Shown: positions 12,373-55,310 of the stretch, one piece after another
Position numbering within the stretch: position 1 is the first letter of the stretch
Layout: every line of letters begins with the position of its first letter
Source: Pseudomonas leptonychotis
Lineage (GTDB): Bacteria > Pseudomonadota > Gammaproteobacteria > Pseudomonadales > Pseudomonadaceae
DNA length: 64,000 bases
Direction of reading: 5' to 3'
Assembly (NCBI RefSeq): GCF_004920405.1
Contig: NZ_RFLV01000005.1
Coordinates: 62,001 to 126,000 of the forward strand
Program-made: the position numbers and the translations under genes
Notes under the pieces: generated by a model
The model's database searches: none
Told to the model about the DNA's origin: nothing
What the model saw: only the letters and a program-made list of their open reading frames with translations

Positions 12373-13230
12373 TTATTGCGAATCGCTTGCAGCATAAGGC
12401 TGCTTCAACCGTGGGCAGTTGGGGCACAGTTTTACTTCAGGCAATAAATCGCGGATGCAACACAAACGACGCTGCCGCCATGGCCGCACCTGACCGTCGG
12501 CATGCTCGATCTCAACGTAGCGGATTGGCGCATACAACGAATTACGCGAACCATCCGGACGCCGTGGGCTGGCCAGCAAGCGCTCGCCATCGACAAGCAG
12601 CTGTGGCTTTTGAGTACGGCTTTTCAGCTGCCCGAGCCAGGCCTCGAAGTAGTTGCCGGCATTGCTCCAGAGCACCTTCGCGGAAACTCCGGTATGCGCG
12701 CAGAGTGCCTGAATCAAGGGCTGCAGGTTGTCATCCAGCAGATGAGCAAAGCGCTCGAAGGGCGTTTCCGGCGACGCCAGCGGCTCACAACCACCCGGCA
12801 GTTTGAACGCCAGCGGCAAGCCTTGATCATCGACGACGACGGCCAGCTGTTCGAGCCGCAGCGGCATGCGTTGATTCAATAGAAGCGCCGCACTGATGAC
12901 CGGCGGAAACAGCCGATTAAAGTACTGATTGACCCAGATCGAAGCCAAACCGCGCTGATCCGCCGCCGCGAACTGCGGACGAAAACGCGCCATCAGCGTA
13001 CTCAATGTGCCCGGCTGTAAAAATTCAGGGCCGCTGATGGCCTCACGCGGGTCATCCGCCCGCACGAAAACATTGCGGTAACGCGCCAGATCCTCACTGA
13101 ACAAGCTGTGAAGCCCAGGCAGCATTTCACCCGCTGCAGGGCTATCCATCGAGGGCGCTGGGCCGGCGATTACAGGCACATTCGGCGACTCAATCGCAGT
13201 GCCCTTTTCGAAAAAATCCTTGCCGCGCAA
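12373..13230 (-). CDS. Siderophore-iron reductase, FhuF family
   Basis: Up to 285 residues. The C-terminal motif RRLCCIRDLLPEVKLCPNCP gives the C-C-x10-C-x2-C pattern that binds the [2Fe-2S] cluster of FhuF. These cytoplasmic reductases take iron from imported ferric siderophores. It is divergent from the exporter candidate across a Fur-like palindrome, which ties it to the siderophore island. The start is uncertain: the longest frame begins at a TTG (13230) with no good ribosome site, and ATGs at 13149 and 13125 are alternatives that keep the conserved domain. Confidence 0.85.
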   Translation of the reverse strand: MRGKDFFEKGTAIESPNVPVIAGPAPSMDSPAAGEMLPGLHSLFSEDLARYRNVFVRADDPREAISGPEFLQPGTLSTLMARFRPQFAAADQRGLASIWVNQYFNRLFPPVISAALLLNQRMPLRLEQLAVVVDDQGLPLAFKLPGGCEPLASPETPFERFAHLLDDNLQPLIQALCAHTGVSAKVLWSNAGNYFEAWLGQLKSRTQKPQLLVDGERLLASPRRPDGSRNSLYAPIRYVEIEHADGQVRPWRQRRLCCIRDLLPEVKLCPNCPRLKQPYAASDSQ

Positions 13231-13263
13231 TGCTTTTACCCGTCACAAAACATCAATACTAAC

Positions 13264-13282
13264 GCTAACGATTAGCATTTGC
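13264..13282. promoter_or_regulatory. Candidate Fur box between the fhuF-like and MFS genes
   Basis: The 19-mer starting GCTAACGATTAGCATT matches the Fur consensus at 13 of 19 positions by my alignment, and contains the perfect palindrome GCTAA-CGA-TTAGC. It shares ATTAGCATTT with the site upstream of amoC. Its place between two divergent iron genes supports the call. Confidence 0.65.
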
Positions 13283-13334
13283 GAAACAATCATTCATTCC
13301 TTAAGATGCACCCCGCGCCCAATCTAGAGCGGTT

Positions 13335-14564
13335 ATGTACATGGATGATGTCGGACACTCAAAAGCAGCTGTGCACCTGGCAATGCTGGTGAACCTGCTT
13401 TCCATCGGCAGCTTGATGATGGTGATGCCCCTGGGTCCTGATCTGGTGCGCCATCTCGGGATGCAAGCCAGCCATGTGGGTTACATCAGCGGCGGCGCCA
13501 CCCTCGCCTCTGCCGCAAGCATGGCCCTTGCTGCTCCCTGGCTGGATCGCCTGAAGCGTAAACAGGCATTGGTGGTACTCCTGACCCTGCGCTTCGTCCT
13601 GCTGATGGCATGCGCCCTGGCCAGCAGCGCCGAACAGTTGATTCTGTTGTTTGTGCTTTCCGGTCTGGTTGCCGGTCCCATGGGGGCCCTACTGATGGCG
13701 AGCATGCTCGACATCATCCCGCCGGCCGAGCGCGGGCGAAAGCTCGCCTATATCGGCATGGGGTTCTCCCTGGCGGCCATCGTGGTGGTGCCACTGGCGC
13801 TGGAGCTGGCCCTGCGCTGGAGCTGGCAAAGTCCCTTTATTGTCTTCGGCGGCCTGGGCCTTGCCCTGGCAGTGCTGTGTCACTTCCTGCTGCGCGTACC
13901 CGTGACCACAACGCGTCCCGCAGGCTCGGTGTTGCCGCTGCTGACTTCGCCGTTATGCCTGGCTGCACTGGCGATTACAGCCGTGCAGATCTTCGGACAT
14001 TTCCTGCTGGTGCCGCACTTTTCCAACTACTTCCAGTTCAACCTGCACTTCCCGCGCGAACAAATCGGCCTGCTGTTTCTCTGTGGCGGCCTGGCCAGCC
14101 TGCTGGCCATGCGCCTGGGCGGCAGCTTGCTCGACCGCGGCCAGGCGCTGAGCGTGATTGTGCTCAGCAGCGGCTGCCTGGCGCTAACCACGCTACTGGG
14201 CTTCGCCACGCCAATTGGTTTGTCGATCTACCTGGTTTTCGTGGTGTTTATGGCCGCCAGCGCCGTGCGCACCAACAGCAGCATGACCATCGCTTCAGCG
14301 ATTCCGCCACCGCATCAGCGCGCCGCCTTTATGGCGTTCCAAGGCACCGTCAGCAATGTCGCGGCCGGCCTTGGCAGCCTGTTCTCGGCGGTCTACCTGA
14401 GCACCGGGGCAGACAACCAACTGCGCGGTTTCGAACAACTGAGCGGCTTTTATGTCGTGGCCGGTTTACTCACGGGGGTGGGTATGTGGCTGCTGCTGCG
14501 CGGCATCCAGCGGCGCGATGCGGTCAGTCACCGCGCAGACATAACAACAACACAAGCGGGCTAG
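13335..14564 (+). CDS. MFS transporter, probable siderophore exporter
   Basis: 409 residues with about 12 transmembrane segments and MFS signatures (the loop APWLDRLKRKQALVV after helix 2; GGSLLDRGQAL after helix 8). It is the first gene of the plus-strand iron block and follows a Fur-like site, so export of the catecholate product, as EntS does for enterobactin, is the likely job by context. The sequence alone does not give the substrate. ATG 13335 and ATG 13341 are both possible starts. Confidence 0.8.
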   Translation: MYMDDVGHSKAAVHLAMLVNLLSIGSLMMVMPLGPDLVRHLGMQASHVGYISGGATLASAASMALAAPWLDRLKRKQALVVLLTLRFVLLMACALASSAEQLILLFVLSGLVAGPMGALLMASMLDIIPPAERGRKLAYIGMGFSLAAIVVVPLALELALRWSWQSPFIVFGGLGLALAVLCHFLLRVPVTTTRPAGSVLPLLTSPLCLAALAITAVQIFGHFLLVPHFSNYFQFNLHFPREQIGLLFLCGGLASLLAMRLGGSLLDRGQALSVIVLSSGCLALTTLLGFATPIGLSIYLVFVVFMAASAVRTNSSMTIASAIPPPHQRAAFMAFQGTVSNVAAGLGSLFSAVYLSTGADNQLRGFEQLSGFYVVAGLLTGVGMWLLLRGIQRRDAVSHRADITTTQAG

Positions 14565-14626
14565 AACCGCCGAGCACCAGTGATCAGCTGTTAACGAGCC
14601 AACACTTACTAAAAATGGAACCTGTC

Positions 14627-16588
14627 ATGTCTTTTGTAAGAAACATCAATCGCCGTCACGCCATCTCTATCGGTGTCCTGGGCGGTCTGTTGCCGTTTGC
14701 GGCACTCGCTGACAACAGCGTGACGCTGCAAGACAGCATCGTCACCGCCACACAAACTGCGCACAGCGAGCTGAGTGTTCCCGCCAGCGCCTCGGTGATC
14801 ACCCGCGCAGAACTGGACAAGATGCCGGTCTACGACCTAGCCGACGCGATTAAGCGTTTACCCGGTGTGCACATCAACACCTCCTCGGCCTATGGCCGCA
14901 AGGAGATCAAAATTCGCGGCATGGATTCGGACTACACCCTGCTGCTGGTTAACGGCCGCCGCATCAACTCGCGTGACGCCCTGACCTCCAACTACGCCAA
15001 CGACTTCGATCTGTCGTCGATCCCGATGGCAGCGGTTGAGCGCATCGAAGTGATCCGCGGGCCAATGTCCTCGCTGTACGGCGCCGATGCCCTGGGCGGC
15101 GTGGTTAACATCATCCTGCGCCAGCCAACCAACGCCACCGAAGCAGGCGTGGCCTACAGCTACGAACACCCAACCGAGGGTGACAACGGTGACGTGCACC
15201 AGACCAGCGGTTACCTCAGCGGCGCACTGGTTGAGAACAAACTGCTCGGCAACCTGATCGTGCAATCCACTGATCAATCCGCTTGGCAAACCGACCAGCT
15301 CAGCCTCACGGGTACCGATGCCGTCGAGCAGCGTCAGGGTGACAACGTGCTGGGCTCGTTGAGCTGGTTGCTCGACGAGCAACAGAGCATCGACCTCGAC
15401 GTTAGCCACCGCGAGGACGATCGCAAGGCCCGCTGGAACAACTTCGGCGCACTGGTCACCAACGTGCAAAACATGGATCGCACCACCTTCGGTGTAACCC
15501 ACAACGGCAACTGGGACAGTTTCAACTCGCGCGTACGCTACTACTACGAAGACGTCGAGCTGAGCGACGATTCTGAAATCATGACCAAGCTGCGCGGCCG
15601 TGTCGGCAAAGTGGAACAAAACAATCACACCGTTGACGGCCAGGTTTCCACCACTCTCGGCAGCCACCTGCTGACCGCCGGCAGTGAACTACGCCGCACC
15701 ACCCTGACCCACAACCAGAACCTTGGCAGCGAAACCGAAGTCGACCAGCAGGCCGTCTACCTGCAGGACGAGTTTTCCCTCGGCGCACTCGACGTCACCC
15801 TAGGCGGGCGTTGGGATGATCATGAGGTCTATGGTGGCAAGTTCAGCCCGCGCCTTTACGGCATCTACAACCTGACCGACAACTGGGTACTCAAGGGCGG
15901 CGCCGGTAAGGCGTTCAAGGCCCCGGATATCACCCAATCCGATGACACCTACAGCGTGTTGGCCTGCCGTGGCATGTGTCAGATCGTCGGCAACCCCGAT
16001 CTCAAGCCGGAAACTTCGGTCAGCTACGAGCTGGGCACCCTGTATCAGAATGAGCGCCTCCAGGCCGGCATCATGTTCTTCAACAACGACATCGAAGACA
16101 TGATTGTCAGCGACAGCTGGCGTGCCGGTTATCGCCCGAAAGTGATGACCTACACCAACGTCAGCGAAGCCCGTATTCAAGGCTATGAGCTGCAAGGCCG
16201 CTACGCCTTCACCGACACCCTTGCGGTACATGCCAACTACACCTACTCCGACGCCGAAGACCGTGACACTGGCGAGCAGCTGAACTACAGCCCACAGCAC
16301 GTGGCCAATGCCGGTATCGACTGGCAGGCACTGCCAGCGCTCGGCTTTAACCTGGATTACCAGTACACCGGCAGCCAAATGCTGGTAGTTCCGGCCAAAT
16401 CCGCCAGCTTCGAGTCCGGGGCGTATGACACCGTCAGCGTCAGCACCAAATACCAAGCCACCAAGGAACTGGCCCTCAAGGCCGGTCTGAACAACCTGAC
16501 CAATACCAAGCGTGACGACGTTGCTCAGTCCATCGACCACATCCTGATGGGCCGCACCGTATTCGTTGGTTTCAGCTACGACCTGTAA
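14627..16588 (+). CDS. TonB-dependent outer-membrane siderophore receptor
   Basis: 653 residues. A signal peptide (about 1-29, GVLGGLLPFAALA-D) is followed by a plug domain (about 35-165; SVITRAELDKMPVYDLADAI, IRGMDSDYTLLLVNGRR, RIEVIRGPMSSLYGADALGGVVNII) and a beta-barrel ending in Phe-Ser-Tyr-Asp-Leu. The plug resembles catecholate receptors of the FepA/IrgA/CirA group. A CRGMCQ pair of Cys lies in an external loop near residues 447-451. ATG 14627 has a weak GGA site; ATG 14615 is in frame too. The context says it imports the ferric form of the amo product. It could accept other catecholates. Confidence 0.93.
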   Translation: MSFVRNINRRHAISIGVLGGLLPFAALADNSVTLQDSIVTATQTAHSELSVPASASVITRAELDKMPVYDLADAIKRLPGVHINTSSAYGRKEIKIRGMDSDYTLLLVNGRRINSRDALTSNYANDFDLSSIPMAAVERIEVIRGPMSSLYGADALGGVVNIILRQPTNATEAGVAYSYEHPTEGDNGDVHQTSGYLSGALVENKLLGNLIVQSTDQSAWQTDQLSLTGTDAVEQRQGDNVLGSLSWLLDEQQSIDLDVSHREDDRKARWNNFGALVTNVQNMDRTTFGVTHNGNWDSFNSRVRYYYEDVELSDDSEIMTKLRGRVGKVEQNNHTVDGQVSTTLGSHLLTAGSELRRTTLTHNQNLGSETEVDQQAVYLQDEFSLGALDVTLGGRWDDHEVYGGKFSPRLYGIYNLTDNWVLKGGAGKAFKAPDITQSDDTYSVLACRGMCQIVGNPDLKPETSVSYELGTLYQNERLQAGIMFFNNDIEDMIVSDSWRAGYRPKVMTYTNVSEARIQGYELQGRYAFTDTLAVHANYTYSDAEDRDTGEQLNYSPQHVANAGIDWQALPALGFNLDYQYTGSQMLVVPAKSASFESGAYDTVSVSTKYQATKELALKAGLNNLTNTKRDDVAQSIDHILMGRTVFVGFSYDL

Positions 16589-16646
16589 CACCCCTAACCC
16601 CGGCGGCCATCGCCGTCGGGGTTAGCCAAATTCTCTGATAGGCCCC

Positions 16647-17684
16647 ATGACTCAGATCAGCCACCCCTTAACCCGGCGCCAATACCACGCCCTACTCGGC
16701 GGCGGCCTATTGCTGTGCATCCTGCTGGTATGTTCCCTGGCAACCGGAGCGGGCCAGTACGGCGCGACCGATGTGTTCGGCTTTCTACTGGGCGAGCCGG
16801 CGCGCTTGGCCGATGACAAGCTGGCCATGGTGGTTAATACCTTGCGCCTGCCACGCACGTTAGCGGCCCTATTAGTGGGCAGCAGTCTGGCGCTGGCCGC
16901 CACCTTGTTACAGAGCGCCACGCGCAACCCGCTGGCCGAACCCGGCCTGCTCGGGGTTAACGCCGGCGCGGTGTTTGGCCTGGTGATTGGCTTGATCTAC
17001 TTTGGCGTCGAATCGACCCATGGCTATCTGCTTTGGGCTGGTGCCGGCGCGCTGCTGGGCAACCTGCTGGTGCTCGGTATCGGCGTGATGCTTGGCCAGG
17101 CCAGCCCGCTCAAACTGATCCTCGCCGGTATGGCGCTGGCTGCGGTGTTTGGCGGCATGGCCAACTTTCTGCTGCTCTCCACCCGCGTCGCCCTGGAACA
17201 GTTTCGCTACTGGAACCTCGGTTCACTGTCGGCTTCCGAGTTATCCGCCGTAATCACGGTCAGCCCCATGGCCCTGCTCGGTTTGGTACTCGCGATTCTG
17301 CTGTGCCGGCAACTGACGCTGATGCAGATGGGCGACAGCCAGGCCCGCGCCTTGGGTATTTCGACCACCTGGGTGCGCATCGGCGTACTGCTCGCGGCCA
17401 CACTGCTGACCGCTTGCGCCATTGCGCTGGCCGGGCCCATCGGCTTCGTCGGCTTCCTCGCGGCCTACTGCGCACGGCTGCTGGAACCAGTGGCGCTACT
17501 GCGCCAGCTGCTGTTCTCCAGCCTGTTCGGCATGCTCTTTCTACTCGCCGCCGACATCCTCGCGCGCTGGCTGGTACAGCCCTATGAGCTGCCGGTCGGC
17601 ACCCTGCTGGCCGCACTGGGCGCGCCGGCCTTGATCGCCATCGTTCTACGCGGCGGCTTCCGTTCCTTGCTGGCGGTGAAATAG
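16647..17684 (+). CDS. Ferric siderophore ABC permease, FecCD family (FepD-like)
   Basis: 345 residues with about nine or ten hydrophobic segments. Family marks are RLPRTLAALLVGSSLALAATLLQSATRNPLAEPGLLGVNAGA (about 71-110) and the coupling-helix glycine region GPIGFVGFLAAYCARLL (about 262-278). It would form the inner-membrane channel with the next gene, two bases downstream. First gene after the receptor, probably cotranscribed with it. Confidence 0.93.
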   Translation: MTQISHPLTRRQYHALLGGGLLLCILLVCSLATGAGQYGATDVFGFLLGEPARLADDKLAMVVNTLRLPRTLAALLVGSSLALAATLLQSATRNPLAEPGLLGVNAGAVFGLVIGLIYFGVESTHGYLLWAGAGALLGNLLVLGIGVMLGQASPLKLILAGMALAAVFGGMANFLLLSTRVALEQFRYWNLGSLSASELSAVITVSPMALLGLVLAILLCRQLTLMQMGDSQARALGISTTWVRIGVLLAATLLTACAIALAGPIGFVGFLAAYCARLLEPVALLRQLLFSSLFGMLFLLAADILARWLVQPYELPVGTLLAALGAPALIAIVLRGGFRSLLAVK

Positions 17685-17686
17685 AC

Positions 17687-18730
17687 ATGCCATCCAAGCA
17701 TCCTTCCGGACTCTGGCACCTGCGCTTGGGCGCACTGAGCCTGCTGCTGCACCGCCGCACCTGGCTGCTTAGCCTGTTGGTACTGGGCGTGCTGCTGACA
17801 TTGGTGGTCGTGGCCATCAGCCTTGGCTCTGGACGCATGGGCGTGACCGATGTACTGGCCACCCTAGGCGGCCAGGGCAGCAAGCTCAACGACATCATGG
17901 TGCTCAAGATCCGCATGCCGCGGGTTGCTGCCGTGGTGGTCGCAGGGCTCGCCATGGGCATGGCCGGCTGCCTGATCCAAACCCTGGTGCGTAACCGCCT
18001 GGCCACCCCGGACATGATCGGGGTCAACGAAGGCGCCTCATTAGCGGTGATCGGTTTCGCCCTCTACTTAACCGTCGGCAGCTGGCCCTGGTGGGCTTCC
18101 CCCTTGGGCGCGGCACTGGCTGCGGTGGCACTGTTCGTGCTGTTCCGTCGCCCCGGTGAGCAGGGCTATTTGTTTATCGTGATTGGTATCGCCCTGTCGG
18201 AGCTGCTCGGCGCGGTCGGTGACTTCATGATGGCCACTCAGCCGCTGGTGCACTTGGGCAGCATCTACCTGTGGACCATGGGCCACTTCGCCGGGGCCAG
18301 CTACAGCACGGTCGCGCCAATTGCACTGATTCTGCTGGCGCTATGCCCGCTACTGGCTTGGCTCAACCGACCGCTGGCGCTGCTGCGCTTCGGTGAAGCG
18401 ACCGCGCAGAACCTCGGTATCAAGGTCGCGGCGCTGCAACTGGCGGTGCTCGGCGTGGCGATTCTGGTGGCCGCGCTGGGCACGGCCATCGGCGGCCCGG
18501 TGGTGTTTATCGCCATGGCCGCACCGATCATCGCCTCTTGGCTGGCCCGCGATCACCTCGCGCCGATCTGGCTGGCCGCCCTGTGCGGCGCGGTGTTGCT
18601 GGTAGGCAGCGACACCCTTTCGCGCCTGCTGGCGCAACCCGAGGAAATTCCCACAGGCATCATGACCCGCCTGCTGGGCGGCTTATTGCTACTGATTTTG
18701 TTGCTCAAAGACCGCAAGGGTTCCGATTGA
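17687..18730 (+). CDS. Ferric siderophore ABC permease, FecCD family (FepG-like)
   Basis: 347 residues, paralogous to the preceding permease. Visible marks are KIRMPRVAAVVVAGLAMGMAGCLIQTLVRNRLATPDMIGVNEGA and the later GGPVVFIAMAAPIIASWLARDHL. The heterodimer of two FecCD subunits is the usual layout for Fep-type importers. It overlaps the ATPase start by one base (TGATG). Confidence 0.93.
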   Translation: MPSKHPSGLWHLRLGALSLLLHRRTWLLSLLVLGVLLTLVVVAISLGSGRMGVTDVLATLGGQGSKLNDIMVLKIRMPRVAAVVVAGLAMGMAGCLIQTLVRNRLATPDMIGVNEGASLAVIGFALYLTVGSWPWWASPLGAALAAVALFVLFRRPGEQGYLFIVIGIALSELLGAVGDFMMATQPLVHLGSIYLWTMGHFAGASYSTVAPIALILLALCPLLAWLNRPLALLRFGEATAQNLGIKVAALQLAVLGVAILVAALGTAIGGPVVFIAMAAPIIASWLARDHLAPIWLAALCGAVLLVGSDTLSRLLAQPEEIPTGIMTRLLGGLLLLILLLKDRKGSD

Positions 18731-19563
18731 TGACGCCGTTAACCCCGCCTTTACCTGCGCAGTTGCGCGTACACAACCTGAGCTTTGCCTACCCAGGAAA
18801 AAGCGTGTTGCAGGACATCTCGTTCGAGCTGCCCAAAGGCAAGCTGATCGGTATTGTCGGCCCCAACGGCAGCGGCAAATCCACCTTGCTCAAGCTGCTG
18901 GCGCGGCAACTGCCGTTGCAGGGCGGCGAGGTCGAACTTAACGGCACGCCGCTGCAACGCTACGGGATGAAAGCCCTGGCCCGCGAACTGGCCTTTCTAC
19001 CGCAGCGCCCAGTGATGGCCGAAGGCATTCGCGTAGAGCAGCTGGTGCAATACGGCCGGCATCCGCACCAGGGCTGGTTCAACCAGTGGAGTGAGGAAGA
19101 CGCCCTGCAGGTCAGCCGTGCCCGCGACGCCATGCAATTGCAGGACATCTGGCAGCAGGTCGCCTCCTCGCTGTCCGGCGGCCAAGCCCAGCGCGCCTGG
19201 CTGGGCATGATCCTGGCGCAGAACACCGACCTGGTGCTGCTCGACGAACCCACCAGCGCGCTGGATATCGGCCACCAGGCCGAGGTCATGGAAGCGGTGC
19301 TGAATATCGTCGCCGAGGGCCGCACTGTGCTGATCGTGATTCACGACCTCGGCGTGGCCGCGCGCTATTGCGATGAAATCATCGCCCTCGATAACGGCCA
19401 CATCGCCGCCATGGGTCCGGCCCGCGAGGTGATCAACAAGGCCCTGGTCGACCAGCTCTATCAAACCGACGTGGACATTCTCGCGGCGCCCGATGACGGC
19501 GCGCCGGTGGTGGTGCCACGCCGGCGCAAGCCCGCAAACTCTGAACAAGGACTCACCCGATGA
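18730..19563 (+). CDS. Ferric siderophore ABC transporter ATPase (FepC-like)
   Basis: 277 residues. Walker A GPNGSGKST (about 46-54), signature LSGGQAQR, Walker B LVLLDEPTSALD and the H-loop VIHDLGVAARYCDEII are all intact. It powers import through the two permeases. The ATG at 18730 overlaps the FepG-like stop, and the stop overlaps the next ATG (ATGA), so translation is coupled through this operon. The open frame extends upstream to 18538, but that part is a shadow of the permease. Confidence 0.95.
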   Translation: MTPLTPPLPAQLRVHNLSFAYPGKSVLQDISFELPKGKLIGIVGPNGSGKSTLLKLLARQLPLQGGEVELNGTPLQRYGMKALARELAFLPQRPVMAEGIRVEQLVQYGRHPHQGWFNQWSEEDALQVSRARDAMQLQDIWQQVASSLSGGQAQRAWLGMILAQNTDLVLLDEPTSALDIGHQAEVMEAVLNIVAEGRTVLIVIHDLGVAARYCDEIIALDNGHIAAMGPAREVINKALVDQLYQTDVDILAAPDDGAPVVVPRRRKPANSEQGLTR

Positions 19564-20501
19564 CGACTCTCATGCGCTGGAGCCTGCCTCTGCTGCTTGC
19601 CAGCCAGCTTTTAAGCACCGCCGCCGTAGCCGACACTCGGCAGATCGAAGACGCCTTCGGTAACCCGGTAACCGTACCCAGCGCACCGCAGCGGGTGATC
19701 ACCCTCAGCGAATTGGATCTGGATGCTGCGCTGGCTTTGGGCATCACCCCGGTGGGTACCATCAACGGTCGTGGCCAGGCCGCACCGCCGCGCTACCTAG
19801 ACCGCAGCGTGCTGGACACTATTAAGGTGGTTGGCGATATCGACAACCCGAATCTGGAAACCCTGCTGGAACTGGAGCCGGACCTGATCCTCACCGGCCC
19901 GGTAAAACCGGAGCAGCTGGCAATCCTCAATGAAATCGCCCCCACGGTGATCACCTTCGCCTGGGCCAAGCCTTGGCAGGAAAGTTTGCAACGCACCGCC
20001 AATGCACTCAACCAAAGCGCTGCCGCCGACGCCCTGCTTGAGCGTTACAACGCCCGCGCAACTGAGGCCCGCGAACGCCTGAAGGCGCATCAAGGTGAGA
20101 CGTTCAGCATCGTACGCTGGAATCCCAAAGGCCCGTCCTACATGTTCAAAGATGCCTTCGCCAGCAGCGTAATCAACGATGTCGGCCTAGTACGTCCGAG
20201 CTACCAACAAGACCCCGGGCATACCCACTCCATGGCCCTGAGTCTGGAATCGCTGCAATTGCTGGATGCCGACTGGCTGGTGATCGGCACCCTGAGTACC
20301 AGCGGCGAAGCCGTCGAAGCCCTGCAGCAAGCCGAACAGACCCCGGCCTTTAAGCAGTTGTCAGCAATCCAGGGCAAACGCTTTGGCGCAGTCGACGGCT
20401 CACTGTGGACCTCACTCGGCGGCCCGCAAGCTGCCCTGCAAGTGATTGCCGATATCGAACACCTGCTCGGCAAAATGGACGCGCAGCCGATCCAACACTA
20501 A
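19560..20501 (+). CDS. Ferric siderophore periplasmic binding protein (FepB-like)
   Basis: 313 residues. A signal peptide (about 1-24, LPLLLASQLLSTAAVA-D) leads into a type III helical-backbone binding fold: TLSELDLDAALALGITPVG, then LLELEPDLILTGPVKPEQLAIL and a C-terminal GGPQAALQVIADIEHLL. It captures the ferric siderophore in the periplasm and delivers it to the permease pair. Last gene of the plus-strand block, followed by two strong inverted repeats. Confidence 0.92.
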   Translation: MTTLMRWSLPLLLASQLLSTAAVADTRQIEDAFGNPVTVPSAPQRVITLSELDLDAALALGITPVGTINGRGQAAPPRYLDRSVLDTIKVVGDIDNPNLETLLELEPDLILTGPVKPEQLAILNEIAPTVITFAWAKPWQESLQRTANALNQSAAADALLERYNARATEARERLKAHQGETFSIVRWNPKGPSYMFKDAFASSVINDVGLVRPSYQQDPGHTHSMALSLESLQLLDADWLVIGTLSTSGEAVEALQQAEQTPAFKQLSAIQGKRFGAVDGSLWTSLGGPQAALQVIADIEHLLGKMDAQPIQH

Positions 20502-20532
20502 CGACATAACCGACCGTTACCGGCAGCGATTT

Positions 20533-20607
20533 GTAGGATGGGTTGAGCGCAGCGATACCCATCACCGGCTTGGTCATTATGGGTATCGCAGGCTCAACCC
20601 ATCCTAC
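20533..20607. repeat. Dispersed palindromic repeat (REP-like)
   Basis: Perfect 16-base arms GTAGGATGGGTTGAGC (20533-20548) and its complement (20592-20607) enclose a second perfect pair GCGATACCCAT (20552-20562) and ATGGGTATCGC (20579-20589). Related single copies appear near 41036 and 42917. It lies between two convergent gene ends and could also stop transcription. Confidence 0.8.
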
Positions 20608-20630
20608 GGCCTGCATAACCGGTGGGAGGA

Positions 20631-20674
20631 GCTTTAGCCGCGAGCTATTTGAGCAGAAAGCTCGCGGCTAAAGC
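20631..20674. repeat. Second palindromic repeat, possible terminator of amoH and the uptake operon
   Basis: Perfect 16-base arms GCTTTAGCCGCGAGCT and complement with a 12-base loop. The outer right flank CGGCTAAAGCCCCTCC recurs near 41145-41159. No T-run follows, so it is more a dispersed repeat than a classic terminator. Confidence 0.7.
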
Positions 20675-20701
20675 CCCTCCTACAGAGACCGCTTGCTGCC
20701 G

Positions 20702-26751: not shown

Positions 26752-26821
26752 AAACTGCCTCTCAGAACCTGTTCAAGGTCTGCTGCGCGTCGGGCCTGCT
26801 GGGTTAAAAACAGGCACTTAG

Positions 26822-27580
26822 TTAGTCGGTCAGGCTTGCGCCGCCGTCGACCACGATGTCTTGCAGGGTGATATGGCTGGCCAGGTTCGACGCCAGGAAC
26901 AGCACGACGTTGGCGACTTCATCTGGGGTGGCGATCTTCTGCAACGGGATGCCCAGTTTGAACTGCTCAGGGAAACCGGCGATGGTGCGCGCCGGAGCAT
27001 CGCTGCTGTGCCACATGCCGCGCTGCATCGGCGTATCGGTGGAACCCGGCGAGACCAAATTACAGCGCACGCCATGGCTCGCCAGCTCCAGACCAGCGGT
27101 ACGAATCAAGCTGCTCAAGGCCGATTTAGATGCGCTGTAAGCGGCCATCTGCATGCGCGGCACATGCGCCGCGTTACTGCTTACTGCCACCACCGTGCCG
27201 CGCCGCCACGCTTTGAAGCGCGGCATCAGCTGACGCAGCAGGTAGAACGGCCCGGAGACATTCACCCGTAGGCAAACGTCCCAGTCTTCCAGTGCCAGCT
27301 CCTCAATCGGCGCCAGACGCAGCACGCCGGCCACGCTGGCCAGTACATCGATCACCCCATGGGCACCGAGGAGTTCATGACAGGCCTGTTGCACCGCTTG
27401 GGCATCACCGATATCCAGCACATAGCGGGTAAAGCTGTAATCCTGCTCGGGAAAGTTCAGGTCGAAGCCAATCACCTGCCCGCCCAACTGGGCAAAGCCC
27501 TCGGCCACGCTGCGACCAATGCCCTGGCCGGCCCCGGTGACCCAGATGGTCTGGCCGCTGAAATCCATTTGCCTGTTCAT
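26822..27580 (-). CDS. amoA: 2,3-dihydro-2,3-dihydroxybenzoate dehydrogenase
   Basis: 252 residues, an SDR of the EntA type. It oxidises 2,3-dihydro-DHB to DHB with NAD+. Visible are the nucleotide-binding GAGQGIGRSVAEGF, the catalytic Ser-Tyr-Lys with YSASKSAL, and NLVSPGSTDTPMQRGMW as in EntA. The frame opens at a TTG (27598) and ATGs at 27586 and 27580 follow; the last has GGGAG at seven bases and was chosen. It starts 12 bases after the amoF stop. Confidence 0.9.
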   Translation of the reverse strand: MNRQMDFSGQTIWVTGAGQGIGRSVAEGFAQLGGQVIGFDLNFPEQDYSFTRYVLDIGDAQAVQQACHELLGAHGVIDVLASVAGVLRLAPIEELALEDWDVCLRVNVSGPFYLLRQLMPRFKAWRRGTVVAVSSNAAHVPRMQMAAYSASKSALSSLIRTAGLELASHGVRCNLVSPGSTDTPMQRGMWHSSDAPARTIAGFPEQFKLGIPLQKIATPDEVANVVLFLASNLASHITLQDIVVDGGASLTD

Positions 27581-27591
27581 CTGCATGCTCC

Positions 27592-30500
27592 CTACCAAAC
27601 CTGTTCCACCTGCGCATCGCTCTGCAGCACGCGGCTGTCGAGGAAGTGGCAGAAGTCCGCCAGACGCGGGTTGTCGAATACATCGGAAACCTTCACCGCC
27701 GTGCCGAATTCACTGGCCAAGCGGTTGACGATCTGGATGGTTTGCAGCGACTGCCCACCCAGCTCGAAGAAGTTGTCGCCCGCCTGAATCGCGCTGACGC
27801 CAAGAATCTGCTGCCAGATAGCGCGCACCCGTTGCTGAGTCTCATCGTCCAGCGCCTGATCACTTGAGCCTTGCAGGTACTGCGCCTGCAGGCGCTTGCG
27901 GTCGAGCTTGTTGGTGGCGGTACGCGGCAGCGCTGGGTAATGGCGGTAATCGGTCGGCACCATGGCCGCCGGCAGCAGCCTGGTCAGTTCCTGACGAATG
28001 CCGCGCAGGTCATCACGCGGACCACTGATAAAGGCCACTAGCCGGCGCAAGCCGCCGCCCAGCTCCAGGCCCTGCACACAGGCTTCGTCGACACCATTCA
28101 AGGCCAACAGACGCGATTCGACCTCACCGGGCTGAATGCGGTAACCGCTGATTTTGAATTCGTTATCCAGCCGGCCGAGGTAAACCAACTGGCCGTCCAC
28201 CACCCGCACTCGATCACCGGTGCGGTAGACCGGGGTTGCTTGCGTACCGATCAGTACGCTGGCAAAGGCTTGCGAGTCGCTGCCAAGGTAGCCATTGGCC
28301 AATTGCGCGCCACACAGCACCAGCTCGCCCTCTTCGGCCGGGCGCTCACCACGGCCCAGCACCAGCGCCGTGACGGCGGCCAGTGGCTGGCCAATCGGCA
28401 AGCTCGCGCTGTCAGGCGCAACGCCTTGCAGGTCGCAGGTGCTCGCCACCACCGTGGTTTCGGTCGGGCCGTAGGTATTGATCAAACGAACATGCGCCGG
28501 CGCCGCAGCCTGCCAAGCCACCAGTTGCTCGGGATAAACCGCCTCACCGCCGATGATCACGCTCTTCAGCCCGCTCGGCACCCGCACCAGGCCAGCCCGC
28601 AAGGCCACTACCCACTCGTTCCAGAACGCGGTCGGCAGGTCGAGCACAGTGATTGCAAGCTGCTCCAGCCCTTCGACAAAGGCGCTGATCGACTCCAGCA
28701 AGGCATCGGTACGCAGCACCAAAGTTGCGCCGGCGCTGAGGCTGACAAACACCTCTTCGATGCTGGCGTCGAAATTAAACGGGGCGAATTGAAGCATGCG
28801 ATCCGTGCCGTCCACGCCATAGCGCAAACGTGCGGCCTGGATAAAGTGGTCCAGCGCGCGGTGGCTGATCTCCACACCTTTCGGCGTGCCGGTAGAGCCG
28901 GAAGTAAACATCAGGTAGGCCGCAGTCTCGTTTTGACGCGGCGCACAGAGGCGATTGGCGCTGTGCAGCACGCCGGCCAGTTCAATCGGGCCGCTGTAGC
29001 TGTCGGCCAGGCGATAGCGGAACGCCGCCTCGGTGACCACCAGCACCAGCTGCGCCGTGGCGCAGATCAAGCGCTGGCGCTCGCCGGGTTGCTCCGGGTC
29101 GAGCGGCACATACACCGCACCGGCCAGCAGCACGCCGAGTTGCACGACAATCGCCTCGGGACTACGGCTGAGCATCACCCCAACCCGCTCACCTGGCTGT
29201 ACGCCACGTTCACTCAAGGCAGCGGCGATGGTTTCCGCTTGCGCCTGCAACTCGCCGTAGGTGATTTGGCGCTCGCCTTGGCACAGCGCCAAGTGCTGCG
29301 GCTGGCGTTCGGCCTGGGCGCGAATGGCCAGCAGCACGCTGCTCACCTCAGCCATGGCCGCCTGCTCGCTGGCCGGCGCACTGAGTAAATGCTGCGTGCG
29401 GTACTGCGCACTCCAAGCGCTGAGCAGTTGATCGCGCGGCTGTTGCGGGGCTTGCAACCAGGCGGCCAGCAGGCTGAATAATTCCTCCTGTAACGCCTGT
29501 ACTTGCGCGGCGCTGTAGCACGCCGGGTTGGCGTCGTAATCCAGCAGCGGCACACCACCTGCGCCCAGGTGCACTTCCAGGGTCAGGTCTTCCACCGGGC
29601 CGGCGCTCAAGCTCAAGGTGCGCGCCGGGCAGTCGCCAAACATCTGCGGGCGATCAAACGGCATGATGTTGATCAACGGGCCGAACAGACGCTGCTCCCC
29701 GCCGACCCGCCCGAGGTCGCGGCGCAGCGATTCGTAGCGGTAATGCTGATGCTTGCGGCTGCTGCGGCGTAGCTTGCCGATGCTCTGCGCGGCTTCGATC
29801 AGATTCGCCTGATCGCTCAGATCGAGGCACAGCGGCGCGATGTTCATTTGCATGCACGGCACGTTGAACGAGGCCGAACCCATGCGATTCATCACCATCA
29901 GACCGAGCACTTGAGCCGCACTGCCACTGACCTGACGCAGCTGCGCTGACAGCGCGGCCAGCAGCAGATCCGGCCAGCCGATTTTATTGGCCTCGGCCAG
30001 TTGATTCAGCGCTTGCCATAAGACCGACGGCAACGCTGCCGAATGGCGGAGGAAGGTTGCCGAAATTGGCGCAACCCGCTCGCTAAAGCTGACCGCCTCG
30101 GGCAGCGCGCCAAGTTGTTCGCGCCAGTAATCCTGCGCCGTGGCCGTACGGCCCTGACTTTCGCGCTCGGCATCTTCAACCAGCACGGCGGTGTAATCGC
30201 CAAATTCACAAGGCGCAGCCGGCTCACCGCGCAGCGCCGCGCCGTACAAATCAGCGACGCGCTGATACAGCAGGTTGCTGCCATAGCCATCGAGAGCGAT
30301 GTGGTGAATGCAGCCGTAGAGAAAATCCACCTGCTCGCCCTGCAACAGGGTGAAGCGGCACGGCCGCTCGCGCTCCAGGTCGAACGCCTGGCGAATATCC
30401 GTCATGCCCCATTGCTGCACCCAAGCCTGGGCGTCCACCCCAGTTGGAATGTGCAACTGCGCCACGCTTAGCGGCAACTCGACAGGGTTGAACAACACTT

Positions 30501-30693
30501 GTTCGCCATCCACCACAAAGTGCCCGGACAACGCCTCGCACTCGCTCACTGCTTGGCGCAGCGCGGCGATCAGCTGCGCGGGCTGGATCTTGCCGGCGAA
30601 GGCGATGCATTCGGCGGTATTGAACATGGCGCGGTCTTCATTCAGCACATAGCCGTGCCACAGGCCCAGCTGGGCGACACCCAACGCCCTCAT
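27592..30693 (-). CDS. amoF: NRPS with C-A-T domains, Lys-like code (AmoF-like)
   Basis: 1033 residues. Condensation domain with HHIALDG at 130-136, adenylation domain (about 480-950; LMFTSGSTGTPKGVE, NTYGPTETTVVAS, YRTGDR, FKISGYRIQPGEVE, TATNKLDRKRL) and a C-terminal carrier domain with Ser982 in LGGQSLQT. The specificity residues read D-A-E-L-I-G-T-V-V-K, sharing six positions with the lysine code D-A-E-S-I-G-S-V-C-K, which suits the two lysines of amonabactin if the module acts twice. The open frame reaches 30792, but the ATG at 30693 overlaps the amoB stop (ATGA) and is the real start. No thioesterase. Confidence 0.88.
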   Translation of the reverse strand: MRALGVAQLGLWHGYVLNEDRAMFNTAECIAFAGKIQPAQLIAALRQAVSECEALSGHFVVDGEQVLFNPVELPLSVAQLHIPTGVDAQAWVQQWGMTDIRQAFDLERERPCRFTLLQGEQVDFLYGCIHHIALDGYGSNLLYQRVADLYGAALRGEPAAPCEFGDYTAVLVEDAERESQGRTATAQDYWREQLGALPEAVSFSERVAPISATFLRHSAALPSVLWQALNQLAEANKIGWPDLLLAALSAQLRQVSGSAAQVLGLMVMNRMGSASFNVPCMQMNIAPLCLDLSDQANLIEAAQSIGKLRRSSRKHQHYRYESLRRDLGRVGGEQRLFGPLINIMPFDRPQMFGDCPARTLSLSAGPVEDLTLEVHLGAGGVPLLDYDANPACYSAAQVQALQEELFSLLAAWLQAPQQPRDQLLSAWSAQYRTQHLLSAPASEQAAMAEVSSVLLAIRAQAERQPQHLALCQGERQITYGELQAQAETIAAALSERGVQPGERVGVMLSRSPEAIVVQLGVLLAGAVYVPLDPEQPGERQRLICATAQLVLVVTEAAFRYRLADSYSGPIELAGVLHSANRLCAPRQNETAAYLMFTSGSTGTPKGVEISHRALDHFIQAARLRYGVDGTDRMLQFAPFNFDASIEEVFVSLSAGATLVLRTDALLESISAFVEGLEQLAITVLDLPTAFWNEWVVALRAGLVRVPSGLKSVIIGGEAVYPEQLVAWQAAAPAHVRLINTYGPTETTVVASTCDLQGVAPDSASLPIGQPLAAVTALVLGRGERPAEEGELVLCGAQLANGYLGSDSQAFASVLIGTQATPVYRTGDRVRVVDGQLVYLGRLDNEFKISGYRIQPGEVESRLLALNGVDEACVQGLELGGGLRRLVAFISGPRDDLRGIRQELTRLLPAAMVPTDYRHYPALPRTATNKLDRKRLQAQYLQGSSDQALDDETQQRVRAIWQQILGVSAIQAGDNFFELGGQSLQTIQIVNRLASEFGTAVKVSDVFDNPRLADFCHFLDSRVLQSDAQVEQVW

Positions 30694-31562
30694 GCGGCAC
30701 CGCCATGTTGTTCGATCAGGCTCCACCAGCCGTTCAGGGTCGGTGTTTTGGCCAGATCGGTGAAGCTCAGCTCCAGACCTTGCGCGCGCCACTCGCTGAG
30801 CAGCGCCATTACCTGAATCGAATCCAGGCCGTAGTCCAACAGGTTCTCGTCGGGGTCGAAGGGCTCATCCAGCTCATCCAGCAAACTCAGCAAACGCGCC
30901 TGCAAGGCCGCGCGGGTCAATGCGGGTGCGGCAGTTCGACCTAAGTTCAGTACCTCGACGCAGCGCACCACCTGACCGCAGCGGGTTGCCACGTAATTCA
31001 GCGCCATCTGATGGTCGGCTTGATTGAAGTCGGCCACGCCATCGGCCAACAGAAACGGCTGAATATCGCGCATAAAGGCGTCGCAGGCGGTCATCAGGCA
31101 GCCGATGTGGGCGTAGATGCCGCCGATGATCAGTTGATCGCGGCCCAGCTCAGCCATCATGTGCTCCAACGGTGAGCGCTGAAAGGCGCTGTAGCGCCAC
31201 TTCACCAGCACCGTGTCGTCCGGTTCCGGGGCCAGGCCGGCGATGATCGCCTGGCGCTCAGGATGTTGGGTGATGCCCGGCCCCCACATATCGTTGAGCA
31301 GCGCCCGCTCGGCGTCGCTTTGCACACCCGGCTGAGCGGTATACACCACCGGAATGCCCAGCGCTTTGCACTGCGCGCGTACGGCTGCGAGGCGTTCAAC
31401 CAGGGCGCTGACAAAGGCGCTGTCGGCCTCCCAGAAGTCAGCGAAATACGCCTGCATATCGTGAATCAACAGCACCGCACGGGCTGGATCAAGCGTCCAC
31501 TTGACCTTGTTCGGCGCCCATTCGCTGGGGGTTTGGTAGGGCTGCAGAGCCGGAATAGCCAT
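30690..31562 (-). CDS. amoB: Isochorismatase with aryl carrier domain (EntB type)
   Basis: 290 residues. The N-terminal isochorismatase (about 1-205; LLIHDMQAYFADFW, VLVKWRYSAFQRSPL, GGIYAHIGCLMTACDAFM) hydrolyses isochorismate to 2,3-dihydro-DHB and pyruvate. The C-terminal 75 residues are an aryl carrier protein whose phosphopantetheine Ser is in LLDYGLDSIQVMAL; it carries DHB to the condensation domains. The start MAIPALQPYQTPS (31562, AAGGA upstream) aligns with EntB; an earlier ATG at 31583 overlaps amoE. Confidence 0.94.
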   Translation of the reverse strand: MAIPALQPYQTPSEWAPNKVKWTLDPARAVLLIHDMQAYFADFWEADSAFVSALVERLAAVRAQCKALGIPVVYTAQPGVQSDAERALLNDMWGPGITQHPERQAIIAGLAPEPDDTVLVKWRYSAFQRSPLEHMMAELGRDQLIIGGIYAHIGCLMTACDAFMRDIQPFLLADGVADFNQADHQMALNYVATRCGQVVRCVEVLNLGRTAAPALTRAALQARLLSLLDELDEPFDPDENLLDYGLDSIQVMALLSEWRAQGLELSFTDLAKTPTLNGWWSLIEQHGGAA

Positions 31563-31575
31563 GAAAATAAAATCC

Positions 31576-33201
31576 TTATGCAATAGAGATCAGGTGCGCG
31601 GCGATACGCTGGCGCAAACGGGTCTTGTCGACCTTGCCGACGGCGGTCATGGGCAGCTGGTCGAGTTGTTCGAAACGGTCGGGCAGCTTGTAATCAGCCA
31701 CGCCCAGGCCGCGCAGAAATTTGCGTAGGGCAATGCTTTTAAGTGCAGGATCACGGCTGACCACGAAGGCGCAGCTCTTCTCGCCCAGGGCCGTGTCAGG
31801 CATGGCCACCAGCGCCGCGTGGGTGATCGACGGATGGGCCATCAGCAGGTTCTCGACCTCTTCGGCGGCGATCTTTTCGCCGCCGCGGTTGATCTGATCC
31901 TTAATCCGCCCGACCACCTCCAGGTAGCCATCGGCGCGCAGTCGCACCAGATCGCCAGAGCGATAAAAGCCCTCGGCATCGAAGGCCTGGGCGTTGTGCG
32001 CCGGGCTCTGGAAGTAACCGCGAATGGTGTAGGGACCACGGGTCAGCAGCGCACCGACCTCGCCAACCGCCACCGGTTTGTCGTCACGGTCGAGCACGCG
32101 CACTTCATCCGCCGGGCTCATCGGGCAACCCTGGGTGCCGAAAACATGCGCCTCGTCATCATCGAGACGGGTGTAATTGACCAAGCCTTCGGCCATACCG
32201 AACACCTGCTGCAAGCGGCAGCCAAGTTCGCTGCCGATGCGCCGTGCCTGCGCTTCGGGCAAACGCGCGCCACCGACCTGCAACAACTGCAGGCTGGCCA
32301 GTTCGCTCGCTTGCCCGGCAGCGGCCTGCAGCCACAGCGACAAGGCCGGCGGCACCAAAGCGGCAACACTTACCCGATGGCGGGCGATCAATGGGAAGCA
32401 GGTTGCGGCCCCCGGATCAGCTGCCAGCACCACGCAGCCACCGGCCTGGAATACCCCCAGTGCACCGGGCGAGCTCAGGGCAAAGTTGTGCGCCGCCGGT
32501 AACGCGCAGAGATAACGCGTGTCGCGGTTGAACGCGCAGATTTCAACACTGCGCCGCACGCTGTAGGCGTAGTCGTCATGGGTGCGCGGAATTAGTTTCG
32601 GCGTACCAGTGCTACCACCAGAGAGCTGAAAGAACGCCACCTGATCGGCCGGCGTCGGCGCATAGGCACGCTGCGCGGCTACCGGTTGTAGCCAGGCACT
32701 CAGTGAGCGTGCAGGGTCGGTATCGCCATCGAGCAGCAATGTGTCGAGTTCTGGAATGGCGACCTGCAATTGACCGAGGAAAGCGTCATCGGCAAACAAC
32801 GGATGCTGGCGACTGCCGATAAACAGCCGTGGCCGCACCTGCCCAGCGTAGGCCAGCAGCTCCAGACGGCTATGGCTGAACAACGCGTTAACCGGAGCGA
32901 TACCAACCTTGAGCAAAGCAAAGAACACGACATAGAACTCAGCCTTATTGGCCAACTGCACCAAGGCTCGATCACCAGGAGCGAAACCATGATTGGCTAA
33001 ACGCTGGGCCAGGTAAGTGGCTTGTACATCCAGCTGGGCATAGCTCAGCTGGCGCTCGCCACAGATCAGCGCAATCGCCTCTGGCTGCGCCTGCACCTGA
33101 GTTTCAAGCAACTGCGTCAGCGGCTCACCGCGCCAGTAGCCGGCCTGACGATAACGTTCGGCAAACGCGTCCGGCCAAGGCGTAAATGGCACCAAGCTCA
33201 T
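31576..33201 (-). CDS. amoE: 2,3-dihydroxybenzoate-AMP ligase (EntE type)
   Basis: 541 residues. It activates DHB as the adenylate and loads it on the AmoB aryl carrier domain. Motifs are FFQLSGGSTGTPKLIPRTH, YRSGDLVRLRADGYLEVVGRIKDQINRGGEKI and the catalytic Lys near TAVGKVDKTRLRQR. An Asn (AAHNFALSSPG) replaces the Asp of amino-acid A domains, which is the mark of aryl-acid activation. GGAGG lies four bases before the ATG, which overlaps the amoC stop. Confidence 0.95.
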   Translation of the reverse strand: MSLVPFTPWPDAFAERYRQAGYWRGEPLTQLLETQVQAQPEAIALICGERQLSYAQLDVQATYLAQRLANHGFAPGDRALVQLANKAEFYVVFFALLKVGIAPVNALFSHSRLELLAYAGQVRPRLFIGSRQHPLFADDAFLGQLQVAIPELDTLLLDGDTDPARSLSAWLQPVAAQRAYAPTPADQVAFFQLSGGSTGTPKLIPRTHDDYAYSVRRSVEICAFNRDTRYLCALPAAHNFALSSPGALGVFQAGGCVVLAADPGAATCFPLIARHRVSVAALVPPALSLWLQAAAGQASELASLQLLQVGGARLPEAQARRIGSELGCRLQQVFGMAEGLVNYTRLDDDEAHVFGTQGCPMSPADEVRVLDRDDKPVAVGEVGALLTRGPYTIRGYFQSPAHNAQAFDAEGFYRSGDLVRLRADGYLEVVGRIKDQINRGGEKIAAEEVENLLMAHPSITHAALVAMPDTALGEKSCAFVVSRDPALKSIALRKFLRGLGVADYKLPDRFEQLDQLPMTAVGKVDKTRLRQRIAAHLISIA

Positions 33202-34361
33202 AACGCCTCCCGTTCCAGGCCGAAGGCCGAGAGCATGGTGCCGAGCTTATTGCCGGTCTCCAGCCACTCCGACTCCGGACAGGACGCCGTCACCAGCCCC
33301 GCACCGGCAAACAGGCTGACTCGGGTGTGCTCGACGATGCCGCAGCGGATCACCACTGCCCATTCGCCGTTGCCATCGGCATCACTCCAACCGACTATGC
33401 CGCCAAACACGCCACGGTCGAACGGCTCCAGCTCGGCGATCAAACGTTTGGCCGCTGCGGTCGGAAAGCCACACAACGCAGGCGTCGGATGCAGGCGGCA
33501 GGCCAGGCTCAATGCCGTGGCCGGTGTGGCCAGCTCGCCGGCGATCTGCGTCGACAGGTGCCAGAGCCGTGCGGTCTTCAGCAACGAAGGCTCTTGGGCA
33601 ACGTTCAGGCTGCGACACAACGGGCGCAGCTGGCGCTCCAGTTCCTCGATCACCAGACGGTGCTCGTGCAGATCCTTGCTCGATCGCAGCAGCGCCTGCG
33701 CCACCAGATCATCGGCCGCTGGATCAAGCAGGCGCTTGGCTGAGCCGGCCAATGGGTTGGAGGTGAAATGACGGCCCTGCTGACGCAACAACAGCTCGGG
33801 GCTGGCGCCAATCAGCACACCGCCAGCCGGCAGATCCATGGAGAAGTGATAGGCCTCGGGGTTCTGCTGTCGCAGCCCTTGGAACACCGTAGCGGCGCAG
33901 GGCGCAATGTCGAACTCCAGCTGCAACAGCCGCGACAACACCACCTTGCTCACCTGCCCGCCGCGCAGCACCTCAACCGCCCGGCCAACAGCCTGCTTGA
34001 AACCGGCCTGGTTTGGCTGTTCGGTGCAGTGGCGGGCCTTGCCACAGGGGAAGCCGTACACCGTAGTCGGCGGCGCGCCCGGCAGCAGGCGCGAAGCATG
34101 GCGCGGCACAAACAAACTGGAGGGTTGCTGCTTGTCGAAAGGAATCACCCCAACCACTATCGGCTGCTGCAAACCAGCCGCTTTGGCCTCGGCAAATGCA
34201 GCCTCAACGCCCCTTTCAACCCCTTGCCCATCCTCACCTGCCGGCGTATCGATGGCCTTGAAACAACCGCTGGCCTCAACCCCACCTTCGGGGGAATAGA
34301 ACCGATAAGTGGGTGCATAGATATCGCTCCTCTGGGAGCCCCCACGAGCGATACGCGTCAA
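33198..34361 (-). CDS. amoC: Isochorismate synthase (EntC type)
   Basis: About 387 residues. It converts chorismate to isochorismate, the first committed step to DHB. The chorismate-binding region is visible in VSKVVLSRLLQLEF, LIGASPELLLRQQGRHFTSNPLAGSAKR, HPTPALCGFPTAAAKRLI and the C-terminal VSLFAGAGLVTASCPESEWLETGNK. The frame opens at a TTG at 34403, but that lies inside the Fur-like palindrome, so a downstream start is expected: GGAGGTGAGG (34380-34371) precedes a GTG at 34370 with no spacing and a TTG at 34361 at a workable distance, so I chose TTG 34361. First gene of the seven-gene operon. Confidence 0.9.
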   Translation of the reverse strand: MTRIARGGSQRSDIYAPTYRFYSPEGGVEASGCFKAIDTPAGEDGQGVERGVEAAFAEAKAAGLQQPIVVGVIPFDKQQPSSLFVPRHASRLLPGAPPTTVYGFPCGKARHCTEQPNQAGFKQAVGRAVEVLRGGQVSKVVLSRLLQLEFDIAPCAATVFQGLRQQNPEAYHFSMDLPAGGVLIGASPELLLRQQGRHFTSNPLAGSAKRLLDPAADDLVAQALLRSSKDLHEHRLVIEELERQLRPLCRSLNVAQEPSLLKTARLWHLSTQIAGELATPATALSLACRLHPTPALCGFPTAAAKRLIAELEPFDRGVFGGIVGWSDADGNGEWAVVIRCGIVEHTRVSLFAGAGLVTASCPESEWLETGNKLGTMLSAFGLEREAL

Positions 34362-34389
34362 TGCATTCACCCTCACCTCCACATATAAC

Positions 34390-34408
34390 GCTAATACGAA
34401 CAATTAGC
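34390..34408. promoter_or_regulatory. Candidate Fur box upstream of amoC
   Basis: GCTAAT (34390-34395) and ATTAGC (34403-34408) are perfect arms of a 19-base palindrome, followed by ATTT. It shares ATTAGCATTT with the site at 13264-13282. The place, just ahead of the seven-gene synthesis operon, is where a Fur box is expected. Confidence 0.7.
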
Positions 34409-55295: not shown

Positions 55296-55310
55296 CGTGC
55301 TATTCATCAC

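Follow-up and report, generated by a model that had tools for sequence, protein, structure and literature searches.

Of the non-linear modes of nonribosomal peptide synthetases (NRPS), amonabactin assembly has been rated as probably the most complex one reported, with iterative, alternative, and optional steps; the iterative use of AmoE-AmoF and the optional nature of glycine are known for the family and are also given in the accessible part of the same review (PMC8949500). Amonabactins have been reported from pseudomonads as well. According to the accessible parts of the respective papers, production by P. stutzeri VS-10 was demonstrated (PMC5345036, citing Sandy 2011 and Sudek 2011), amonabactin clusters of Stutzerimonas were termed 'previously reported' (PMC10165715), and mass spectrometry (MS) features of Pseudomonas sp. 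SST3 were attributed to amonabactins (PMC10609385). Here, a stretch of 64,000 nt from Pseudomonas leptonychotis was analyzed (assembly GCF_004920405.1, contig NZ_RFLV01000005.1, positions 62,001 to 126,000), which is called the window. By its sequence, the region 12373–34403 is very probably a locus for an amonabactin-type siderophore, of the kind found in Pseudomonas/Stutzerimonas. An earlier note on this DNA had expected such a locus in a pseudomonad to be little described, an expectation that the three papers do not support, and had singled out its linked import genes, which Aeromonas loci also carry in a like layout. An amonabactin locus in a pseudomonad is already known, and the part that appears to be new is a short form of the synthetase AmoG.

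The seven biosynthetic genes lie on the minus strand. Their order, from the isochorismate synthase to the stand-alone adenylation domain, was as claimed in the earlier note and, by Pfam and NCBIfam matches, is that of amoCEBFAGH; the collinearity with the Aeromonas genes and the linked uptake genes bear out the amonabactin-type reading. The claim that the domain content also equals that of Aeromonas failed for AmoG, in which the C-terminal pair of condensation (C) and thiolation (T, carrier) domains is missing. With adenylation (A) and epimerization (E) domains, 2,3-dihydroxybenzoate (DHB), and the aryl carrier protein (ArCP) abbreviated, the genes are:

33198–34403, minus strand: amoC, isochorismate synthase (PF00425, 2e-73; TIGR00543, 299 bits, cut-off 224.75)
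31576–33201, minus strand: amoE, DHB-AMP ligase (NCBIfam NF008192, 884 bits, cut-off 783)
30690–31583, minus strand: amoB, isochorismatase-ArCP (PF00857, PF00550; motif GLDS)
27592–30792, minus strand: amoF, C-A-T NRPS, predicted to activate lysine (Pfam; carrier motif GGQS)
26822–27598, minus strand: amoA, 2,3-dihydro-2,3-dihydroxybenzoate dehydrogenase (NF006074, 371 bits, cut-off 312)
22189–26751, minus strand: amoG, docking-C-A-T-E NRPS of 1520 amino acids (aa) (Pfam: TubC_N, 2 Condensation stretches, 1 PP-binding stretch)
20702–22192, minus strand: amoH, stand-alone A domain, predicted to activate glycine (PF00501 and PF13193 only, without a carrier domain)

Public genome contigs were scanned with AmoG, and 79 loci were listed. 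AmoG was 53–94% identical in 34 of them, among those listed 5 Pseudomonas(-like) loci, Stutzerimonas nitrititolerans, 17 Aeromonas, 7 Pectobacterium, and 3 Photobacterium loci, and Motilimonas; the remaining 45, with 29–36% identity, were taken for unrelated NRPS. The amo genes are collinear in the 34 loci as far as the contigs extend, and because the uptake genes of Aeromonas likewise lie opposite, the amonabactin cluster is the closest named system. The earlier note had held that NRPS matches to another named cluster would speak against its reading; outside the Pseudomonadaceae, the matches were to Aeromonas and to amo-like loci of Pectobacterium, Photobacterium, and Motilimonas. Among the matches listed in 369 genomes of the class, only the window's own genome had an AmoG match above 38% identity, and a megablast search of E. 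coli genomes with amoG gave no match.

The length of AmoG was not uniform. In 27 of the 34 loci (Aeromonas, Pectobacterium, Photobacterium, and Motilimonas) the protein is long, with 2078–2201 aa, and in seven (L009–L014 and A. diversa, L040) it is short. All sampled copies from Pseudomonas/Stutzerimonas, with the exception of L171, and the copy from A. diversa have 1517–1525 aa, and 2069–2201 aa were found elsewhere. Pfam detected 3 Condensation and 2 PP-binding stretches in the two long forms scanned (A. salmonicida and Photobacterium), and 2 Condensation stretches and 1 PP-binding stretch in AmoG of the window and of A. diversa. In an alignment, of which nine of twenty rows were compared, four short proteins stop just past the E domain, whereas in five long proteins a C domain follows (marked by AHHGVLDGWSG in A. 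salmonicida) and then a carrier (GVDS), both of which are absent here. The window protein contains HHIISDG at residue 206, GGDS at 1057, and the E-type motif HHLVVDAVSW at 1237. As A. diversa shows, the predicted C-A-T-E-C-T architecture is a trait of the long lineages and not of every amo locus.

Within the family, nearly all sampled copies of AmoG have the short end. Of 398 sampled Pseudomonadaceae genomes, 21 bear AmoG (match at E <= 1e-290), i.e., four of the window's genus including the window's own genome, 16 of a group that includes S. nitrititolerans (g15), and one of a third group (G486). Twenty of the 21 have the short end. The C-terminal C-T is absent from all 16 sampled amo-bearing genomes of g15, and G486 has the sole long AmoG, with 2069 aa. 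One of the twenty, G542 (L171), has lost an internal stretch that reaches from amoB to within amoG, with a 1335-aa remnant of AmoG left and amoH kept; this may be an assembly artefact. On an AmoG tree of 52 rows, two changes are required to explain the short form, one in a Pseudomonas-Stutzerimonas clade and one in A. diversa. The tree was built with a quick method with SH-aLRT (a likelihood-ratio branch test) values only and contains long branches (L026, L170, and L172); L172 was placed between the Aeromonas and the Pseudomonas clades without support, and the tree does not give the direction of change. L155 and L156, whose contigs have the same lengths as the L012 and L014 records, and L171, for its internal deletion, were left out. 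As the outer groups and G486 have the long form, and AmoH accompanies both kinds, a loss of the C-T, and not a gain, is inferred. An assembly accident was ruled out as the origin of the short form, which recurs in 24 of the 52 rows.

The end section of the Aeromonas AmoG probably handles the optional glycine. The ancestral synthetase may have contained a C-T pair as its second module, on which the glycine A domain AmoH acted in trans. In the proposed pathway, AmoC, AmoB, and AmoA would convert chorismate to DHB, AmoE would load DHB on the ArCP of AmoB, and AmoF would couple it to lysine. The C-A-T-E of AmoG would join the DHB-Lys units to Phe or Trp, and its E domain would generate the D form. 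The C-T would have been lost in Pseudomonas/Stutzerimonas and separately in A. diversa, with AmoH mostly kept. AmoH would now load glycine on one of the three carriers that are left, the likeliest being the T domain of AmoG, whose gene overlaps amoH by 4 bp, and glycine-bearing amonabactins would still be made without a dedicated module. In the 4.39-Mb genome of the window, three Condensation-family domains were found, all in the amo cluster and none elsewhere, and it was therefore ruled out that the missing C domain is encoded elsewhere. The lack of any outside C domain also argues against the idea that AmoH is paired with a carrier from elsewhere in the genome, which we consider improbable. 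In its favor, the genome has seven PP-binding matches, of which four lie outside the cluster, but one of these carriers is probably a fatty-acid acyl carrier protein. One match to the phosphopantetheinyl-transferase family was found elsewhere in the genome.

The properties of AmoH favor a continued function. Pocket positions were taken from motifs and the usual code positions and not from an alignment with GrsA. The AmoF pocket is DAEDIGTVV in 51 of 51 rows, a code that we take to stand for lysine. For AmoH, DILQLGCVWK or DILQLGCIWK was found in 48 of 49 aligned rows, the 49th being ended by a contig edge, and DILQLGCVWK is presumably a glycine code. With these code assignments, the predicted substrates (Lys, an aromatic residue, and Gly) fit an amonabactin cluster, in line with the earlier note. 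Of the 20 Pseudomonadaceae loci with a short AmoG, 18 have a full-length AmoH. In nine short-AmoG pairs, its ratio of nonsynonymous to synonymous substitution rates (dN/dS) was 0.075–0.165, indicating purifying selection. The same pairs yielded 0.070–0.191 for AmoG, AmoF, and AmoE and 0.037–0.298 for AmoA, and three long-AmoG pairs yielded 0.066–0.248 for AmoH. One of the nine (window and L153) includes a frameshifted stretch of the L153 AmoH, and the range is the same without that pair. A general drift of AmoH was ruled out by these values, even though the gene is broken in two of the 20 loci. Selection on AmoH is unlike that on a long-unused gene, and we therefore infer that it still charges a carrier in most strains with a short AmoG. 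From sequence, the balance tips slightly towards AmoH still putting glycine into the product.

Several observations weigh against this reading, and the first group concerns AmoH itself. Behind the short AmoG of G642, only the two ends of amoH are left (L164:12280-12700), and in the Pseudomonas genome G758 (L153) the gene is frameshifted between residues 71 and 81, which could be a sequencing error; in these two of 20 loci, the locus persists without an intact AmoH. Together with the absence of the C-T and of any other C domain in the genome, this would fit an alternative in which the strains make only the glycine-free amonabactins P693 and T732, because the C-T of the glycine module is gone, and AmoH is a slowly decaying leftover or has another role, e.g., with another activated amino acid. 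An Aeromonas amoH deletion described by Esmaeel in 2016 reportedly still yielded two of the four amonabactin forms, in line with this alternative. Nevertheless, the purifying selection on AmoH, its predicted glycine code, unchanged in two genera, and its full length in 18 of 20 loci speak against a leftover, and we regard it as rather unlikely that glycine is no longer used.

Further evidence against exclusively glycine-free products comes from the MS values of SST3, as given in the accessible part of PMC10609385. They include 750.3217 and 789.3335, which equal the calculated neutral masses of the glycine-bearing P750 and T789 within 0.001. The value of this evidence is limited in two respects, which also count against a continued use of glycine. 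The three amonabactin values of SST3 are printed there as [M+H]+ and equal the neutral masses of P693, P750, and T789. An ion of 694.3082, unassigned in the accessible part of PMC10609385, equals the calculated [M+H]+ of P693, but the ion 751.3670 does not fit that of P750 (calculated 751.3297). In addition, SST3 is a Pseudomonas by NCBI, and its AmoG lies outside the compared set.

A. diversa and the Pseudomonas clade were also compared for signs of a common carrier change, and none was seen beyond the level of other isolated rows, a further point against. A. diversa has 2, 7, 9, 3, and 2 shared-only columns in AmoB, AmoF, AmoG, AmoH, and AmoE, respectively, with a median row of 0. The corresponding numbers are 4, 16, 22, 8, and 7 for L172 and 3, 8, 7, 3, and 4 for L026. 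A. diversa thus stays below L172 and near L026, and the idea that one carrier was convergently adapted in both lineages was ruled out. The wider scenario, namely that at least twice the C-T of an optional module was dropped, its trans-acting A domain was kept, and one carrier came to be served by two A domains, is put forward only tentatively, as a possibility that falls short of being probable.

The remaining points against concern the product. The A pocket of AmoG is DAMFGGMVTK in the window, DAMC in five related Pseudomonas rows, and DAMLGGMVTK in Aeromonas, so that it differs from Aeromonas in one position. No thioesterase domain was found in the scanned proteins of the cluster; four thioesterase-family matches outside the cluster are weak, and the release of the siderophore is left unexplained. 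Amonabactin production by the window's strain is a prediction from its genes. The deviating pocket, the lack of a thioesterase, and the loss of a terminal C-T that might have a role in the second addition or in release could indicate that the product is another DHB-Lys-aromatic peptide, e.g., a single DHB-Lys-aromatic unit. However, the two long AmoG proteins that were scanned also lack a thioesterase domain, the synteny and the uptake genes are those of amonabactin loci, and amonabactins from P. stutzeri VS-10 are in print, and thus a different peptide appears very improbable, the least probable of the alternatives. Taken together, the retention of AmoH for glycine incorporation is still the reading that we prefer.

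No description of an AmoG without the terminal C-T was found in the open literature, which is a weak negative because the main papers are behind subscription and outside that search. The lineages with a short AmoG resemble natural deletions of a module whose partner A domain was mostly retained, and natural breaks of AmoH come in addition from G642 and G758. A comparison of strains could therefore address both glycine incorporation and the role of the terminal C-T. Because no other NRPS with a Condensation domain is present, the genome should not encode pyoverdine synthetases, and no IucA/IucC-type match was found in it. This Pseudomonas seems to lack the synthetases for pyoverdine and for NRPS-independent siderophores, and it may rely on a catechol island.

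The exporter, TonB receptor, permeases, ATPase, binding protein, and FhuF-like gene named in the earlier note were all present by Pfam. In the proposed route, a pump of the major facilitator superfamily (MFS) would export the siderophore, the ferric form would return via the receptor and the ATP-binding cassette (ABC) system, and FhuF would reduce the iron. The genes, two candidate operators, and the insert as a whole are:

12373–13230, minus strand: fhuF-like ferric-siderophore reductase gene (PF06276, 3.3e-21, and PF11575)
13261–13279: possible Fur-type operator in the spacer of the fhuF-like and exporter genes, AATGCTAAT-N-ATTAGCATT-like palindrome with 2 mismatches
13335–14564, plus strand: MFS exporter, presumably for the siderophore (PF07690, 4.2e-38)
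14627–16588, plus strand: TonB-dependent catecholate receptor, 653 aa (PF00593, PF07715; start read from the sequence)
16647–17684, plus strand: FecCD-type permease 1 (PF01032, 1.5e-82)
17687–18730, plus strand: FecCD-type permease 2 (PF01032, 2.8e-71)
18730–19563, plus strand: ABC ATPase (PF00005, 4.1e-31; in-frame ATG at 18730)
19560–20501, plus strand: periplasmic binding protein (PF01497, 1.5e-20)
34393–34411: possible Fur-type operator in front of amoC, palindrome of the same type with 3 mismatches
12339–34672: full extent of the insert, from the alignment with G467 (L204), a close relative in which the junction is empty

The first in-frame ATG of the fhuF-like gene is at 13149. The exporter reached 164 bits with the MxcK-like family, below its cut-off of 525. 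An open reading frame (ORF) of 992 aa at 13610 starts inside the exporter gene in another frame, and its in-frame ATG at 14627 yields the 653-aa receptor. The spacer at 20500–20700 between the convergent genes for the binding protein and AmoH appeared by eye to be rich in inverted repeats. A gene for 3-deoxy-D-arabinoheptulosonate 7-phosphate (DAHP) synthase lies at 54219–55310, about 20 kb from amoC, possibly for chorismate supply or as a housekeeping copy. The window has two such palindromes, and its mononucleotide shuffles (n = 20) had 0.05 on average, a lenient control because the half-site was read off the window itself. Similar sites were found in L009, L010, L012, and L013, and the E. 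coli Fur consensus had no match within 3 mismatches in the window.

The site of the island was analyzed with relatives. The alignment of G467 (L204) covers 11901–12336 of the window and resumes at 34673, the two parts being about 35 bp apart in G467, and therefore the island is set in the junction of a small ORF and a UvrD-like gene. In G971, these are about 1.3 kb apart with no amo match. In G014, G835, G870, and G994, UvrD occurs without amo in the examined stretch, but no small ORF was seen at the corresponding end. The junction is thus conserved in two of the six relatives compared. In L009 and L013, amo adjoins the same UvrD-like gene, with no small-ORF match in the available stretch. The nearest AmoG relative, L010 (Pseudomonas sp. 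sp1636, 94%), has amo at another site, which, read from translations, lies between COG0523-type GTPase genes; by eye, an ORF beside it (L010:1939-2271) resembles a remnant of an IS21-type transposase. A core-gene tree had been suggested in the earlier note. In an rpoB tree of 29 of 30 genomes (G835 had no rpoB match), the four amo-bearing Pseudomonas fell in a clade of seven, and its three other members are amo-free, which fits transfer or repeated loss of amo. A tRNA-linked island was ruled out, as the window contains no tRNA and no Rfam match.

The closest known system is the amoCEBFAGH cluster of Aeromonas, which has the same seven genes in the same order and the same predicted activation of DHB, Lys, an aromatic residue, and Gly. 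The identities to the window are 60–62% for AmoG, 66–69% for AmoE, and 57–59% for AmoF, where the contig holds the gene. The receptor (51–54% identical), permeases, ATPase, binding protein, and MFS exporter lie on the opposite strand there as well, as far as the contigs extend. Aeromonas differs in about 1 kb of extra DNA between the genes for the binding protein and the ATPase and has no FhuF match within the stretch fetched. Among the 34 loci, a match to FhuF was seen beside amo only in Pseudomonas (L009, L010, L012, and L013, 75–76% identical). The main difference is AmoG, which is C-A-T-E-C-T with 2078–2119 aa in the 16 long Aeromonas rows, but C-A-T-E with 1520 aa in the window. On the AmoG tree, the sister clade consists of the sampled g15/Stutzerimonas proteins, which do not include VS-10. 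They share the short form, but belong to another genus and are 67–72% identical. The amo-like loci of Pectobacterium, Photobacterium, and Motilimonas contain the same seven genes as far as the contigs extend, yet have a long AmoG (53–60% identical) and differently arranged uptake genes. The AmoH ORF is longer in L015 (Pectobacterium, 704 aa) and L025 (Photobacterium, 779 aa). By eye, their N-terminal extension (L015:16309-18423, L025:16539-18878) is possibly what is left of a C domain, which would suit an origin of the A domain in a formerly complete C-A-T module. In L022 (Pectobacterium sp. PL152), the amoE match is split into three pieces, which looks like the effect of frameshifts. The myxochelin synthetase MxcG is more distant: AmoF resembles its C-A-T part, but the match of 920 bits is below the cut-off of 2300 and covers positions 5–1043 of a profile of 1442.

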